This document shows positions 1-9,585 of a stretch of 47,189 nt of DNA, one piece after another; the first letter of the stretch is position 1, and the number at the start of each line of letters is the position of its first letter. Made by a program: the position numbers and the translations under genes. Location: the NCBI GenBank assembly GCA_902531985.1, contig CACAGG010000005.1, positions 1 through 47,189 on the forward strand, given 5' to 3'. Under the pieces are notes generated by a model. The model did no database searches, was not told where the DNA came from, and saw only the letters and a program-made list of their open reading frames with translations. Source of the DNA: an uncultured marine group III euryarchaeote (GTDB taxonomy: Archaea; Thermoplasmatota; Poseidoniia; MGIII; CG-Epi1).

Positions 1-462
1 GAAAGAAATATTAATGATACAAATGCAGATCGTATAGGCGTTAGTAATCTTACTTTTGTAAAAAGAAAGCGTGTTGCTGAATTAAAGAACACAGTTTGTA
101 ACAAATCATATAGAGTTGATGTATCAATTTCGAATGAAATTTCAATCGAAAGCCTTAAGAAAGCCTCGCAAAGGTTGACGGGCACAGTTATTGAACAGCG
201 GACACCCACACGTGTGTCACATCGTCGAGCTGACTTGATACGCCCTCGTCTTATTAATGATGTGGAGGTAACTTCACTTCAGAATGGTATGGCGGAACTT
301 GTAATCAAAGCTCAGCATGGGACATACATACGTGAGCTTGTCAGCGGAGATGAGGGACGTACTGTTCCAAGTCTTTCCTCGCTGGTTAATTCTGTATGCA
401 AGGTGGAAGTATTGGACGTCCTTCACCTCCATCTTGACGCAAAAGAGGAAAAAAATGTCTAA
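1..462 (+). CDS. pus10: tRNA pseudouridine synthase Pus10, C-terminal part (5' end outside window)
   Basis: Frame 1 is open from base 1 (ERNINDTNADRIGVSNLTFVKRKRVAELK...). It contains RTPTRVSHRRADLIRPR and GTYIRELVSGDEGRTVPSLSSLV, typical of archaeal Pus10. It lies directly upstream of L21e. Confidence 0.88.
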   Translation, partial: ERNINDTNADRIGVSNLTFVKRKRVAELKNTVCNKSYRVDVSISNEISIESLKKASQRLTGTVIEQRTPTRVSHRRADLIRPRLINDVEVTSLQNGMAELVIKAQHGTYIRELVSGDEGRTVPSLSSLVNSVCKVEVLDVLHLHLDAKEEKNV

Positions 463-748
463 AAGATCTCGTGGATTAAGGAGTGGCTCACGTCACAAGC
501 TTTCGCGCTCATCAAGAGAGCGAGGATTATCACCTATAACTCGTTCACTGCAGACATTTGATGATGGAGAGACTGTAAATGTAGTCATAGATCCTTCTTA
601 CCAAAGAGGGCAACCGCATCATAGATTTCATGGGCTGACTGGGAAGGTATTACGTTCTCAGGGTAAAGCATATGTGGTGCTTACTCGCGTAGGTAATATG
701 GACAAAGAGCTTATAGTCCGTCCAGAACATTTGAGAAAGGCAAAGTAA
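455..748 (+). CDS. rpl21e: 50S ribosomal protein L21e
   Basis: Starting at the internal ATG at 455: MSKRSRGLRSGSRHKLSRSSRERGLSPITRSLQTFDDGETVNVVIDPSYQRGQPHHRFHGLTGKV. Overlaps the pus10 stop. The tracked ORF start at 317 is too long. Confidence 0.95.
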   Translation: MSKRSRGLRSGSRHKLSRSSRERGLSPITRSLQTFDDGETVNVVIDPSYQRGQPHHRFHGLTGKVLRSQGKAYVVLTRVGNMDKELIVRPEHLRKAK

Positions 749-759
749 AGGAGATATTA

Positions 760-1257
760 ATGGAAGAATCACAACCTGAACCAGTTACGCTAGGAGATGT
801 TAAGGAACTTTTAGAAAAAGAGCTAAGCGTAAGGGAGAACAAATTGAGATGTATAGATTGTGGTCATTTTCAACCAGTTCCTGATGTTGAGCCAGAACCT
901 GAAGTTAAAGAAGAAGCTGTAGAGGGAGAAGAGGAAGAAGAAGGTCCTAAGGGTCCAACATGCGATTCATGTGGCTCTGAGCGAATGACTTTGATAGAAC
1001 AAATACAATATGAGCATAAATTAGCTTTAGACCATGTAAGGCTTTTATCTCAGAGTGATCCAGAGCATTCTAAAGCAATTATTGAAAAAGTTATTGTTTT
1101 AGAGCATGTAGATGACTATTATGCAGCTAAGATAGCTGATATTTTACCAATGCATCCAGATGAGGTCCGTTCTATTTTTGCTAGAGAACGTTTTTCATTA
1201 GGTAGGGATGAGATTGACTCCATAATAAGTGCTGTTAAGGAGACTACGGGTGCATGA
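760..1257 (+). CDS. rpoF: DNA-directed RNA polymerase subunit F (Rpb4-like) with inserted zinc-ribbon-like loop
   Basis: C-terminal half matches the Rpb4 pattern (EHKLALDHVRLLS...KIADILPMHPDEVRSIFARERFSLGRDEIDSII). Genomic context is L21e-rpoF-DUF655. Contains CIDC...CDSC separated by an acidic stretch. Confidence 0.85.
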   Translation: MEESQPEPVTLGDVKELLEKELSVRENKLRCIDCGHFQPVPDVEPEPEVKEEAVEGEEEEEGPKGPTCDSCGSERMTLIEQIQYEHKLALDHVRLLSQSDPEHSKAIIEKVIVLEHVDDYYAAKIADILPMHPDEVRSIFARERFSLGRDEIDSIISAVKETTGA

Positions 1258-1260
1258 TTT

Positions 1261-1800
1261 ATGGAAGATTACGCTTACGTTCTTGATGTATTGCCAGAGG
1301 GACGACCTGATAGTAAACGTAGATTTCGAAGAGAAGCTGTTGTTTACGGATTAGGTATTGAAGAGTTTAAAATTTTTGATATGAAGCCCATTCCTGGCTC
1401 AGCGATTAACATAGGAGACCGGTGTTACATTGGCAAAGAAACAGAGGAACGAAAACAAATAGATCACGTTAGAGCAAGGGTAAATTTCGTTGATTTAACA
1501 CATACTGCCCAATCTGAACTTAGTTTTGTATTGGATGAAATAGTCAAAGAAAATGAAGAAAAATTCATACAATTTTACAATCATGCAGGACCTATTTCTC
1601 GTAGATACCATTCACTTGAATTAATACCTGGCTTAGGTAAGAAAACCATGAACCTTATTGTTAGCAACAGGCCGTACAAGACTTTTGAAGAAATGCAAGA
1701 TAAAATCCCGAATTTCCGTAATCCTGAAAAATACATATCACAACGCATAGAAAGTGAAATTAGAGAAAGTGATCAAAAATATCGCTTATTTGTTAGATAA
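1261..1800 (+). CDS. DUF655 family putative nucleic-acid-binding protein (HhH-like)
   Basis: EDYAYVLDVLPEGRPDS...AINIGDRCYIGKE...LELIPGLGKKTMNLIVSNRPYKTFEEM; the canonical euryarchaeal neighbour of rpoF. Confidence 0.88.
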   Translation: MEDYAYVLDVLPEGRPDSKRRFRREAVVYGLGIEEFKIFDMKPIPGSAINIGDRCYIGKETEERKQIDHVRARVNFVDLTHTAQSELSFVLDEIVKENEEKFIQFYNHAGPISRRYHSLELIPGLGKKTMNLIVSNRPYKTFEEMQDKIPNFRNPEKYISQRIESEIRESDQKYRLFVR

Positions 1801-4175: not shown

Positions 4176-4257
4176 ATAATAATAATTAGCAACTATTATT
4201 AATAATTATTCACTAAGCTTTATAACCTGCGCTCTGGTGAAAATAATAGGTATAGCA

Positions 4258-7200
4258 ATGAGCTTGAACTATAACAAACAGCTTGTAAACACATTAGCTT
4301 TCGTGCTTTTATGTGTAGGTTTTCTTCTAATCTCAGGTAATGCATCAGCTGATGCTTATGACCATAAGATGACTGTTAGTCCATCTACACAAAGCGGAGA
4401 TCCTGAAGAACAATTACAATATACAATAACTATTGAGAATACTGGAGATAATGATGACACATACGACATGACAGTCACCAACTCTACCATTCCAACGGGT
4501 TATACTGCATTTATCTTGCCATCTAGTCTTGCAGTAGAGGAAGATGAAAGCGGGACTGCAACTCTTTTCGTAAAGATTGCAAATAGAACAACAAATACTG
4601 CTGAAGGTGGAGATACAGCTCAAATTACTTTTAAATCTACATCACAAAATGTAGATGGTAAATCAAAAACTCAAACAGCTTCTTTGACTGTTAATAATGT
4701 ATACGGAACTACTCTTACTCCAAGTGTAGGTGAGCAAACAGTTAATCCAAATGAAAACGTAAAGTTTCAAGTATCTGTTAAGAATTCGGGCGGTAATACA
4801 GAAGACAGTGTAACAATTTCTTTTTCAGCCAATGGTGTAGATTCATGGGATATTACACCACAGCCTTCTACCCTAACTCTAGACATTAATGAAATTGGTT
4901 ATTTCAATCTTTCAGTTACTCCAGATATTGAAGCAACAGCAGGTTTGAAAAGTATTTCTATTATTTCTACTTCAGAAGATGGTCAGACTGTTGCTTCAAC
5001 TTCAGTTACCGTTAAAGTTAATCAACTTCCAGCACTTCAGGTAGATAAAGTAGGCTCAAGTTCGAAGGATGTTGAGGCCGGTAAGAGAGTTTATTATTCG
5101 TTCGAAGTAATCAATAAAGGTAATGCAGTGGATACGTTTAATCTTGCAGTAGATACCTCTTCTCTTCCAGAGGGTTGGGATGCTTCTTTAGACCAAGATA
5201 AAATTAGTAATCTTGGTGTGGACGATAACATAACTCTAACAGATGTTCTTGTGGTAAAAGCGCCAGATAATGCAGTAGCAGAATCTGAAACTAGTATAAT
5301 TGTAACAATCTCATCAGATTTTAATTCATCTGTAAATTCAACATATACTTCTAGATCTACAGTTTTACAAAAATTCGAGCCTAAGATCTCTATTGTTGGT
5401 GAAGATACGATGTCTGGAAAACCTGAAGAACAAGTAAATTTCACAATTAAAGTTGAAAATGATGGCAATGGTGAGGATGATATTTCATTGACTTTGATGG
5501 GCGGTAACTCTAGCTGGGGTCAGCTTGGAGACTCAGCATTTACACTTTCGGCAGGAGCAAACGCCACAACAACTCTCAGAGTAACGCCTCCTAAAGATAC
5601 AGAAGCTAAGAACGGTTACATTTTGATTGTTAAAGCTACTTCAGAAGATGATACAACTTCAGCTTCTCGAAACACATTCATAAATGTTGAGCAAATTTTT
5701 GAAGTATCAGTTCAAGTGGCAGGAGATAGCTCTAAGAAAGGAGATCCTGGAGATGAGTTAACTTATTCAATTACAGTAAAGAACAAAGGTAATGGTGAAG
5801 ATACAGTATCATTAACTTTAGAAGGAGACAAAGCATCTTGGGGTTCAATAATTGATGAAGTAGAGTTAACAAGTGGTGAATCAACTTCAGTTAATTTAAC
5901 AGTCAATATTGATGACGATGCAACAGTTGGAGATAATGATATTGTTGTAAGAGGAACGTCTGAAGATAATCCCAGTGCAAATGATACAGGTACTGTTAAA
6001 GTCACTGTAAACAAGCAGTTCAAAGTTGATGTTGTGGTTTCATCTAAAAGCGGAGATCCGGGTTCGACAATCACCTATCCAGTCAGAGTTCAAAATGAAG
6101 GTACGGGTGTTGACACATTTTCAGTTACAATCGATGATTATCCAGAGGGTTGGTCAGTTGACCCAGTATCATTCCAAGTTGAGGATATAGAGGCTGGAGG
6201 CGAACAAATAGTGAATTTAAATGTATCTATACGTTCAGGAGAAGATAACAAAGCTTTCTCTATTAATCTAACAGCTTCATCTGATGAAGCCCGTAAAGAG
6301 AATCCTCCAAAATATGTAAACACTACAGTAAGCATAATTACGATTGTTAATCAGGAATATTGGATTGAACTTGATTTGGATGATCCTGGAGACATAAATG
6401 TCGCAGCAACTGTTGGAATTCCAACTTCCGTTGATTTTGACGTTGTAAACAAAGGAACAGGCGAGGATGTTGTATCGCTCACGGCTACTGGTCCAGAGGG
6501 CTGGACCTCAGTATCTTTCAGTAGTAATTATGTAAGTGTAGCTGAAAATGGCCAAGAGGAGGTTTCTTTGTTTATTACAGTTCCAGAAGATACGGCAGAT
6601 CAAGTATATGATATAGTTGTAACTGGAGTGTCAGATTGTGATACTTGTGATGAAGAAGGCGCTCGATCTAATTATGCCATAACATTCAAAGTTGATGTTA
6701 CATTATCAAGAGGTGTTGAAATTAGTGCAGATGTTATTCAGGTATCAAAATTACCTGGAGCTGTAGCAAATTTCACAGTTGATTTGAAGAATGCAGGAGA
6801 TGGTTCAGATACAATATTATTATCAATTTTGGATGATGATTTATCTTGGGCTTCCTTGAATAGGACTCAAGTTTCGTTAGATAAGGAAGGTACAGGATCT
6901 GTCGTAGTTTCAGTTAGCTTACCTACTTACAACTTAACTGAGTTGTCAAATCAAGAAAGAACTGCATTACAAGGTAGTAGTTATGAAATTACTATTAAGG
7001 CTAAGTCTGCAGGAGATTTATCAGTTAGTCAAAATGTTGAATTAACGACAAATATCGGTCAAATATATGGGGCGAGTATAGAAGTTATTGGCGATAAGAG
7101 CGTAACGTCTTATCCTTCCACAGAGACCGATGATTCAGAGCGTACTGAAAAGTTTACTTTCAAATTGACAAATACAGGAAATAAGCAAGATGTAATTGAT

Positions 7201-9585
7201 GAAAACATAATTGCAACAACTTACCCTGATGAGTGGGACGTTACTTTGTATCAATCATCATCATGTACATCATCATTTAGTGGCAGTATTGGTGCAGGTC
7301 AATCTAAGTATCTTTATCTGTGTGCAGTACCAGATCAAGATTCCGATATAGGGAATTATACAATTTTAACAGAATTCTCACCAAATAGTGGTAGTGAACC
7401 TGCAGAAACAGTTTCTGTTACTTTAGAAGTTGCTTCGCCAAAGAGAGATTTGGAAGCTACAGCTATCGATAGCGCTAAGGAAATTTATCCTGAATATGAG
7501 GGATCTACAACTCAGAATAGCGTAAAATTCAAAGTTAAATTAGACAACACTGGGTCGAATTTGGATAAATTTATACCTGAAGTGGAGAGCAGTCTTGAAG
7601 ACGATTGGTCCGTTACATTCTGGCAGGACAGTTCAAAAACTCAAACTTGGCCAACTAGCGGTGTTGAAATTGAAGACGGCGAGCTAGACGATCTTTGGGT
7701 GTTTGTAGAAGTTAATGATGAAGCTGATGAAGGTAATGAGACTATAGAAATCTCAATACGTGATGAAGAGGATGATCCTAATGCACGTGCAGAAATTAGT
7801 TTAACTGTAACTGTTCAAAGGCCAGAGATAATGATTTCTGCTTCAAAAATATCGTTAGAGATTGATGGTGAAGTAGGAAATGCTTCAACAGTTAAAGAGG
7901 AAGATACCCTTGTTATTTTAGTTGACGTAGAAAACACAGGAACTGCAGATGCAGATGATGTTCGAATAGAAGTTTTCTATTATCCAAAGAAATCACCAGA
8001 AACGCAAAATGAAATTGATAATTTATTGATTGCAGGCTTTGAACTTGATGAAGGTAAAAACACGTACATCAAGACATTGTATGACAAGACAACAAATATT
8101 AAATCTAAGAATTTGAAATCTATTGCTTCAGATGATTGGTTGATTGAGGGTGGAGAATGGTATGTGGAGGCCCGAGCTGATTATGATGAAGACAATGACA
8201 ATGGCGAAATCTTAGAGCCCAATGAGAATAACAACGATGCACGATATTCAGAATTATTGAGAGTTAAACCAGATTTAATTATTGATACTATGAGAGTAGA
8301 TAGCAAATACAGTGGAGAATCTGCTCAAACACCTAATATTGATGATATTGTAACCTTCACAGTTACGGTAAGTAATACTGGTGCAGCAGATGTTAAAGGC
8401 GCTCGTTTGTATATTACAGCAGATAGTAGCGAAGATAATGAAATATTGAAAGATCGTACAAACAAAGACCATGTTGAATTCGATGTCGATGCAGGTGAAA
8501 CAACAGATGTCCGATTCCGTTGGAAAGCAACTGAAGAGGAATGGAGTTCCTTTAGAGCTGAAGTTAACCCCGTTTGTGAAGATTATAACATTCAAAGCTT
8601 CGAGTGTGAATCAGATGGAGACGGCTTTGCAGCTGAAACAGACCGCATGTTTGACGAATTAGGACGTTATGCAGATAATGAATATCCACGTACTGGCGTG
8701 TTTGAACAAAATGAGGTAGAGGTTAAGTTTGAAACTTTACCAGATTTCAGAATTAAGAAAGTTGCAATGGATCCTCGTGACCCCGAAGTCGGTGAGAGTG
8801 TTGAAATCACAGTTACATTGGAAAACATAGGTAATGCAGATTGGCAAATTAGTTCTAAACCATTGACAGTTAAGTTTGAAGATGGAACCGGTAACGAGTG
8901 GACTAGTTCAGTTGGCGAGTCTATTAATCAAGCAGATACTACAGAAGTGAAATTCACTTGGAAGGTTCCAGATGAAGATAACAAAGATGAACTTACCTTG
9001 ACTTGGACTATTGAAGCAGGAACTGGTAGTTTTGAAATCAAACAGTGTAATACTTGTGATGACTTTACTCTAGGTGGCGGTACGGATAATGATGAATATA
9101 CTCAGGAGTTAGAACTTGTACTTCCTGCAGTTCTCGGCGAGATAGAGTTCATTAATACATTGACTGAAAGAGAATTAGTTAAAGGAGTGCCATTATTGTG
9201 GCCAGTAGCAATTATAGTAGGAGCAGTTGTTCTTGGAATGGTAGCAGTCCCTATTCTGAGAAGAAGAGGAGGAAGTTCTTCATCACCAGATTCAGAAGGT
9301 TCAGACGACGAAGATTCAGGTGAAGATGCATCCGCAGAAGAAGCTGCAGTTCCTTCAAAAATAGGAGTAGTTATAGTTTCATCAGTTGATGGTAAGACTG
9401 CAAATGTGAAGGTTCCTTCAAATATGCCTGTTAATAAATTATTACAAAATTGTATTGAGAAATTCCAATTACCACATGCTAATTTTGCAGTAATGCTCAA
9501 TGGAGTACCCGTGGATGTTAATTTGTCATTGGCAGACGCAGGTTTGACAGATAGTTGCCAAATAGATTTAGTCCCACTTGAATAG
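4258..9585 (+). CDS. Giant surface protein: repeated NEW3/CARDB-like beta-sandwich domains, one TM helix, cytosolic ubiquitin-like (YukD-like) C-terminal domain
   Basis: Signal peptide MSLNYNKQLVNTLAFVLLCVGFLLISGNASADA. At least eight repeats of the type V(K/E/Q)N(K/T/E)G(N/T)GEDxxSL. TM LLWPVAIIVGAVVLGMVAVPILRRR. Terminal 76 aa SKIGVVIVSSVDGKTANVKVPSN...DLVPLE. ATG at 4258 preferred over the tracked GTG at 4237 because a TATA-like TTTATAA lies near 4219. Confidence 0.85.
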   Translation: MSLNYNKQLVNTLAFVLLCVGFLLISGNASADAYDHKMTVSPSTQSGDPEEQLQYTITIENTGDNDDTYDMTVTNSTIPTGYTAFILPSSLAVEEDESGTATLFVKIANRTTNTAEGGDTAQITFKSTSQNVDGKSKTQTASLTVNNVYGTTLTPSVGEQTVNPNENVKFQVSVKNSGGNTEDSVTISFSANGVDSWDITPQPSTLTLDINEIGYFNLSVTPDIEATAGLKSISIISTSEDGQTVASTSVTVKVNQLPALQVDKVGSSSKDVEAGKRVYYSFEVINKGNAVDTFNLAVDTSSLPEGWDASLDQDKISNLGVDDNITLTDVLVVKAPDNAVAESETSIIVTISSDFNSSVNSTYTSRSTVLQKFEPKISIVGEDTMSGKPEEQVNFTIKVENDGNGEDDISLTLMGGNSSWGQLGDSAFTLSAGANATTTLRVTPPKDTEAKNGYILIVKATSEDDTTSASRNTFINVEQIFEVSVQVAGDSSKKGDPGDELTYSITVKNKGNGEDTVSLTLEGDKASWGSIIDEVELTSGESTSVNLTVNIDDDATVGDNDIVVRGTSEDNPSANDTGTVKVTVNKQFKVDVVVSSKSGDPGSTITYPVRVQNEGTGVDTFSVTIDDYPEGWSVDPVSFQVEDIEAGGEQIVNLNVSIRSGEDNKAFSINLTASSDEARKENPPKYVNTTVSIITIVNQEYWIELDLDDPGDINVAATVGIPTSVDFDVVNKGTGEDVVSLTATGPEGWTSVSFSSNYVSVAENGQEEVSLFITVPEDTADQVYDIVVTGVSDCDTCDEEGARSNYAITFKVDVTLSRGVEISADVIQVSKLPGAVANFTVDLKNAGDGSDTILLSILDDDLSWASLNRTQVSLDKEGTGSVVVSVSLPTYNLTELSNQERTALQGSSYEITIKAKSAGDLSVSQNVELTTNIGQIYGASIEVIGDKSVTSYPSTETDDSERTEKFTFKLTNTGNKQDVIDENIIATTYPDEWDVTLYQSSSCTSSFSGSIGAGQSKYLYLCAVPDQDSDIGNYTILTEFSPNSGSEPAETVSVTLEVASPKRDLEATAIDSAKEIYPEYEGSTTQNSVKFKVKLDNTGSNLDKFIPEVESSLEDDWSVTFWQDSSKTQTWPTSGVEIEDGELDDLWVFVEVNDEADEGNETIEISIRDEEDDPNARAEISLTVTVQRPEIMISASKISLEIDGEVGNASTVKEEDTLVILVDVENTGTADADDVRIEVFYYPKKSPETQNEIDNLLIAGFELDEGKNTYIKTLYDKTTNIKSKNLKSIASDDWLIEGGEWYVEARADYDEDNDNGEILEPNENNNDARYSELLRVKPDLIIDTMRVDSKYSGESAQTPNIDDIVTFTVTVSNTGAADVKGARLYITADSSEDNEILKDRTNKDHVEFDVDAGETTDVRFRWKATEEEWSSFRAEVNPVCEDYNIQSFECESDGDGFAAETDRMFDELGRYADNEYPRTGVFEQNEVEVKFETLPDFRIKKVAMDPRDPEVGESVEITVTLENIGNADWQISSKPLTVKFEDGTGNEWTSSVGESINQADTTEVKFTWKVPDEDNKDELTLTWTIEAGTGSFEIKQCNTCDDFTLGGGTDNDEYTQELELVLPAVLGEIEFINTLTERELVKGVPLLWPVAIIVGAVVLGMVAVPILRRRGGSSSSPDSEGSDDEDSGEDASAEEAAVPSKIGVVIVSSVDGKTANVKVPSNMPVNKLLQNCIEKFQLPHANFAVMLNGVPVDVNLSLADAGLTDSCQIDLVPLE

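Follow-up and report, generated by a model that had tools for sequence, protein, structure and literature searches.

The archaeal RNA polymerase subunit Rpo4 (RpoF, the homologue of Rpb4; Pfam PF03874) is small and conservative in structure, in the archaeal as in the eukaryotic polymerase. Among the PDB matches, the archaeal Rpo4 chains have 107-122 residues, and the matched NCBIfam RpoF models have 105-120 positions. CxxC...CxxC ribbons are found in the polymerase-associated proteins RpoP, TFS and Spt4, but these are encoded by separate genes. The zinc ribbon of TFE-alpha, a separate winged-helix protein, docks on the stalk subunit RpoE, that is Rpo7 (PMC7704642). Spt5 and FttA are located at the archaeal stalk or next to it, and FttA contacts both RpoE and RpoF (PMC11616081). 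TFE genes were reported to be missing in Thermoplasmata (PMC4495717, PMC7289017). The Rpo4 described below resembles TFE-alpha in that it would place a (predicted) zinc ribbon on the Rpo4/7 stalk, but here the ribbon is part of Rpo4 itself and TFE-alpha is undetected in the lineage concerned.

We analysed a window of 47,189 nucleotides (the whole stretch of DNA under study) from a genome whose lineage is marine group III (MGIII) and not Poseidoniales; among named genomes, CG-Epi1 and CG-Bathy1 are its nearest relatives. The start codon of its rpoF gene is the ATG at position 760, with AAGGAGATATTA 5' of it (please see Table 1 for the features of the locus). The order Pus10(-like), L21e, rpoF, DUF655 is the usual rpoF context, and the L21e-rpoF-DUF655 order is kept in the window and in most MGIII loci having enough flanking sequence. 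The protein matches PF03874 with 28.5 bits (E 2e-6), above the cut-off of 25.6, and NCBIfam PRK14981 RpoF models match its residues 73-161 with E-values down to 6e-21, under their full-length cut-offs. It is an Rpo4/RpoF orthologue: the gene and its place in the operon agree with those of the known proteins (T. kodakarensis 4qiw_F, M. jannaschii 1go3_F, P. furiosus 8cro_F), and so do the helical core and the predicted fold. The original prediction, made from the letters of the window, was of an Rpb4/RpoF of 165 aa carrying an inserted CxxC-acidic-CxxC segment, and it is confirmed by the open reading frame, by Pfam and by the invariance of the motif in MGIII. Elsewhere in the window, positions 4237-9585 (+) encode a 1782-aa predicted secreted protein with repeated domains, a C-terminal membrane segment and a predicted cytoplasmic tail that looks ubiquitin-like (KIGVVIVSSVDGKTANVKVPSNMPVNKLLQNCIEKF...).

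Table 1. Features of the rpoF locus. Positions refer to the window.
Feature	Position	Strand	Evidence
rpoF/Rpo4 (Rpb4 homologue), RNA polymerase stalk subunit with insert, 165 aa	760..1257	+	Pfam PF03874, NCBIfam PRK14981, AlphaFold/Foldseek
Rpo4 N-terminal segment and helix 1, ancestral part, residues 1-25	760..834	+	Alignment to helix 1 of other Thermoplasmatota Rpo4
Rpo4 insertion, about residues 26-80, helix 1/helix 2 junction	835..999	+	Gap in most aligned non-MGIII Rpo4
Knuckle 1, C31-x2-C34, then G35	850..861	+	Invariant across MGIII; codons TGT/TGC
Acidic linker, residues 42-64, predicted disordered	883..951	+	pLDDT below 50 for most; pN/pS 0.48; charge composition
Knuckle 2, C68-x2-C71	961..972	+	Invariant across MGIII
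Conserved helical core, residues 81-165	1000..1254	+	Profile matches of other families start at or near here
Ribosomal protein L21e gene, upstream of rpoF	455..748	+	Pfam PF01157, E 1e-32
DUF655 gene, downstream of rpoF	1261..1800	+	Pfam PF04919, E 3e-52

In order to place the insert, we used a local-pair alignment of 24 proteins. About 55 extra residues separate helix 1 (ending ...LLEKELSVR) from helix 2 (QYEHKLALDHV), bounded by R25, the terminal Arg of helix 1, and by the initial QYE of helix 2; this is what the window protein has in addition to the known chains. The insert of the window protein consists of a CxxCG knuckle, an acidic linker and another CxxCG knuckle, in this order. The range first proposed for it, 850-972, does contain the four cysteines (residues 31, 34, 68 and 71), but the peptide quoted along with that range, which runs to CGS at residue 73, ends at nucleotide 978, 6 nt beyond. 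The CxxC...CxxC arrangement of the four cysteines of the protein was obtained in only 40 of 200,000 shuffles.

The insert is present in all 21 MGIII genomes examined (19 from the genome search and two read directly), with all four cysteines invariant. Scanning one genome per species gave 20 loci with the insert, and named loci include the MGIII euryarchaeotes CG-Epi1 and CG-Bathy1 as well as the single-cell genomes AH-321-L02 and AG-343-N02. One locus (PCCQ01000080.1) lies in a bin named Neomarinimicrobiota, yet its DNA is MGIII-like, with rpoF followed by DUF655; this contig is probably mis-binned. None of 12 Poseidoniales genomes has the insert. Among the matches listed for 390 Thermoplasmatota genomes, uninterrupted full-length profile matches occur only in MGIII; the other listed matches begin at about position 60-90, at or near the core, except for two that cross stop codons. 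Likewise, no CxxC...CxxC pattern was seen in more than 100 non-MGIII Rpo4 sequences read directly from nearly 40 Thermoplasmatota families. These results support an insert that is clade-specific to MGIII within the sampled Thermoplasmatota. The proposed lineage specificity thus holds for all MGIII against Poseidoniales and the other families read: within Thermoplasmatota the insert is not already widespread, and its cysteine pairs are conserved in the 21 orthologues. Since the same insert recurs in many independent MAGs and SAGs, it is due neither to chance nor to assembly error, and we ruled out a sequencing or assembly artefact. A donor gene was sought among the zinc-ribbon genes of the same genomes and none was identified; the matches were weak, one overlapping TFS (E 0.015) and one to an ORF in a single genome (E 2e-4).

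We then considered the predicted fold. The AlphaFold2 input alignment was shallow (19 MGIII sequences of one clade), and confidence was moderate, with mean pLDDT of 73 for the whole Rpo4 and 66 for the insert modelled alone. In the whole protein, helices were predicted at residues 11-25, 80-96, 101-111, 119-128, 133-142 and 149-163 and strands at 28-31, 37-39 and 76-78, with pLDDT of about 75-80 in the ribbon and below 50 for residues 44-62. The insert alone gave the same three strands and a pLDDT near 80 at the knuckles. Foldseek matched the full model to 9bct_F, 4qiw_F, 8orq_F and 1go3_F at probability 1.00 (target TM 0.72-0.76, E 0.003-0.04). For the insert, almost every one of the best PDB matches is of zinc-ribbon or rubredoxin type: MCM N-terminal domain, HypA, Trf, rubredoxin, ChsH2/DUF35, eL40 and Sir2, together with chemokine and melatonin receptor structures, which carry a rubredoxin fusion. 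Not one of these matches reaches E 0.001. No Pfam zinc family matched the Rpo4 insert at its own cut-off. The models thus give good, though not conclusive, support to a zinc ribbon, predicted to hold one Zn ion. The putative zinc ribbon with an acidic tongue put forward in the original prediction is supported by the sequence, by selection and by this predicted fold.

The explanation that we favour, with somewhat better than even confidence, is that a zinc-ribbon insert with an acidic loop was gained a single time on the MGIII stem and is a docking knob of the stalk. An insertion of about 50-75 residues would have entered between helices 1 and 2 and would fold as a small zinc ribbon of two CxxC knuckles and three strands, interrupted by a disordered and strongly acidic loop. 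The ribbon would then serve as a rigid knob on the stalk, and the loop may modulate electrostatic contacts to some basic partner close to where the RNA exits. Candidates for this partner are the Spt5 KOW domain, FttA (a termination nuclease), the clamp base and proteins bound to nascent RNA. An accessory docking domain on the stalk is the most likely function of the insert.

Neutral expansion of a permissive loop is the simplest alternative, and we consider it unlikely. In this case a real zinc-stabilised ribbon would close a tolerated, solvent-exposed turn without having any partner, and the cysteines would be retained since without zinc the insert would unfold, to the detriment of the subunit. 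The turn between helices 1 and 2 is indeed an insertion hot spot. The aligned non-MGIII Rpo4 proteins are gapped there except for a few residues in family f28 and for the Thermoplasmatota family f11 (L081-L085), which has an unrelated insert of about 40 aa (PSVIYTGPEDDGLTPR...); some members of f17 have a short insert at the same place. Rpo4 therefore tolerates extra sequence at this turn. The f11 insert is like that of MGIII in position and acidity but has no cysteines, and by content it is independent; it indicates that the loop tolerates expansion and that the acidic part may be mere filler. As a separate observation, Poseidoniales Rpo4 (L001, L011, L025 and others) has a short insertion of its own between helices 2 and 3 (SDHRNGYKT type), which is missing from MGIII and from the other aligned families.

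Selection on the insert was assessed with 19 MGIII sequences. From uncorrected Nei-Gojobori counts, with synonymous sites near saturation, pN/pS was lowest for knuckle 1 (0.17), followed by helix 1 (0.19), the core (0.20), knuckle 2 (0.28) and the linker (0.48); knuckle 2 was looser (0.47) in a subset of four deep-sea MGIII sequences. Each of the four cysteines is encoded by TGT in some sequences and by TGC in others, and never gives way to another residue. Length and sequence of the linker change rapidly in evolution, which would fit neutral expansion, but knuckle 1 is under purifying selection equal to that of the core, and the insert is kept everywhere in a lineage having small genomes of roughly 1 Mb. 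Besides the cysteines, R30, G35, F37, Q38, P41, G65, P66, S73, E80, Q81 and I82 of the ribbon are invariant in MGIII, which argues against pure neutrality; the Gly that follows the fourth Cys varies (CDSCSS, CEKCDS, CEKCES). The insert is a real and selectively kept elaboration of the polymerase stalk.

It could also be supposed that, after the loss of TFE, the MGIII ribbon bridges stalk and clamp in cis, as TFE-alpha does in trans elsewhere; it would lean against Rpo7 or the base of the clamp and favour clamp opening in initiation. In Poseidoniia, PF02002 (TFE-alpha) gave sub-threshold or marginal matches and none at 1e-5; the best one, of 22.5 bits to a 1787-aa ORF, barely reaches the cut-off, and only with neighbouring pieces summed. 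Several other Thermoplasmatota families gave clear matches, and TFE-alpha was detected in the control archaea. Very large MGIII ORFs of about 1780-1840 aa (L101-L105, L107) match the TFIIE-alpha winged helix weakly, with 16-22 bits, and are probably not TFE. The MGIII stalk thus bears a predicted ribbon while apparently lacking TFE. The Rpo7 gene is of normal length in most MGIII relatives; it was not found in the window's own genome, which is 75% complete. MGIII Rpo7 retains the hydrophobic residues Y95, F98 and L107 of the TFE docking site (as aligned without gaps to the chain of T. kodakarensis), but these residues are also part of the S1 domain. Residue co-change in Rpo7 at this site was uninformative, the residues being kept in MGIII and Poseidoniales alike, and the core of MGIII Rpo4 as well as Rpo7 are otherwise ordinary. 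The ribbon-less Poseidoniales also lack TFE-alpha and have nearly the same Rpo7 residues, hence the correlation is unspecific, and a role in replacing TFE is possible but not supported. The window Rpo4 itself has no match to PF02002, which covers winged helix and zinc ribbon. We regard the substitution as improbable, in spite of the seat of the TFE-alpha zinc ribbon on RpoE (PMC7704642) and the reported absence of TFE from Thermoplasmata. Among RNA, TFE and ribosomes, which the original prediction offered as possible contacts of the insert, TFE is unlikely because TFE-alpha is undetected in MGIII and TFE reported missing from Thermoplasmata (PMC4495717, PMC7289017).

A reading that we hold to be just as improbable takes the acidic loop as the working part, a nucleic-acid mimic which recruits basic proteins (Spt5 KOW, FttA or the ribosome) while the zinc knuckles merely clamp its base. 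The segment between the Cys pairs is 29-52 aa long in the MGIII orthologues and has 8-18 Asp/Glu and 0-2 Lys/Arg in every one of them; its acidic character persists in all lineages while sequence and length drift. The location of FttA and Spt5 at or next to the archaeal stalk (PMC11616081) would suit this reading. However, constraint on the protein is weakest in the linker, and neutral processes can give rise to low-complexity acidic loops. A redox-sensitive stalk switch, in which the four cysteines bind iron or Fe-S or form disulfides, is very improbable: formally, CxxC pairs could bind iron in the rubredoxin manner, and rubredoxins are among the Foldseek matches of the insert, but a CxxCG knuckle followed by a strand is typical of a structural zinc ribbon, and the archaeal transcription proteins having the same CxxC...CxxC pattern (RpoP, TFS and Spt4) bind zinc.

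We also ruled out the insert as a substitute for one of these zinc-ribbon polymerase parts. The Pfam search was too insensitive for RpoP in most MGIII and a later search detected it; since the RpoP, TFS and Spt4 genes are all still present in MGIII, the insert is no replacement for them. In the deep MGIII genus g2 (L109, L111 and L114), the fourth zinc-site Cys of Spt4 is gone (HNCPTG or HNCPSG vs CPRC), and a nearby His might replace it.

Full-text searches of the literature, with subscription papers outside their reach, gave no mention of an Rpo4 insert, and the words zinc and insertion are absent from a 2026 survey of archaeal polymerase small subunits (PMC13257274). The MGIII Rpo4 ribbon is therefore apparently previously undescribed. 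A ribbon that is kept by selection across a whole clade offers a natural experiment on the docking partners of the stalk, within a phylum whose best-studied class reportedly lost TFE, and the way in which polymerases without TFE open the clamp becomes a testable question. Moreover, the insert cleanly marks off MGIII from MGII (Poseidoniales) at the molecular level.
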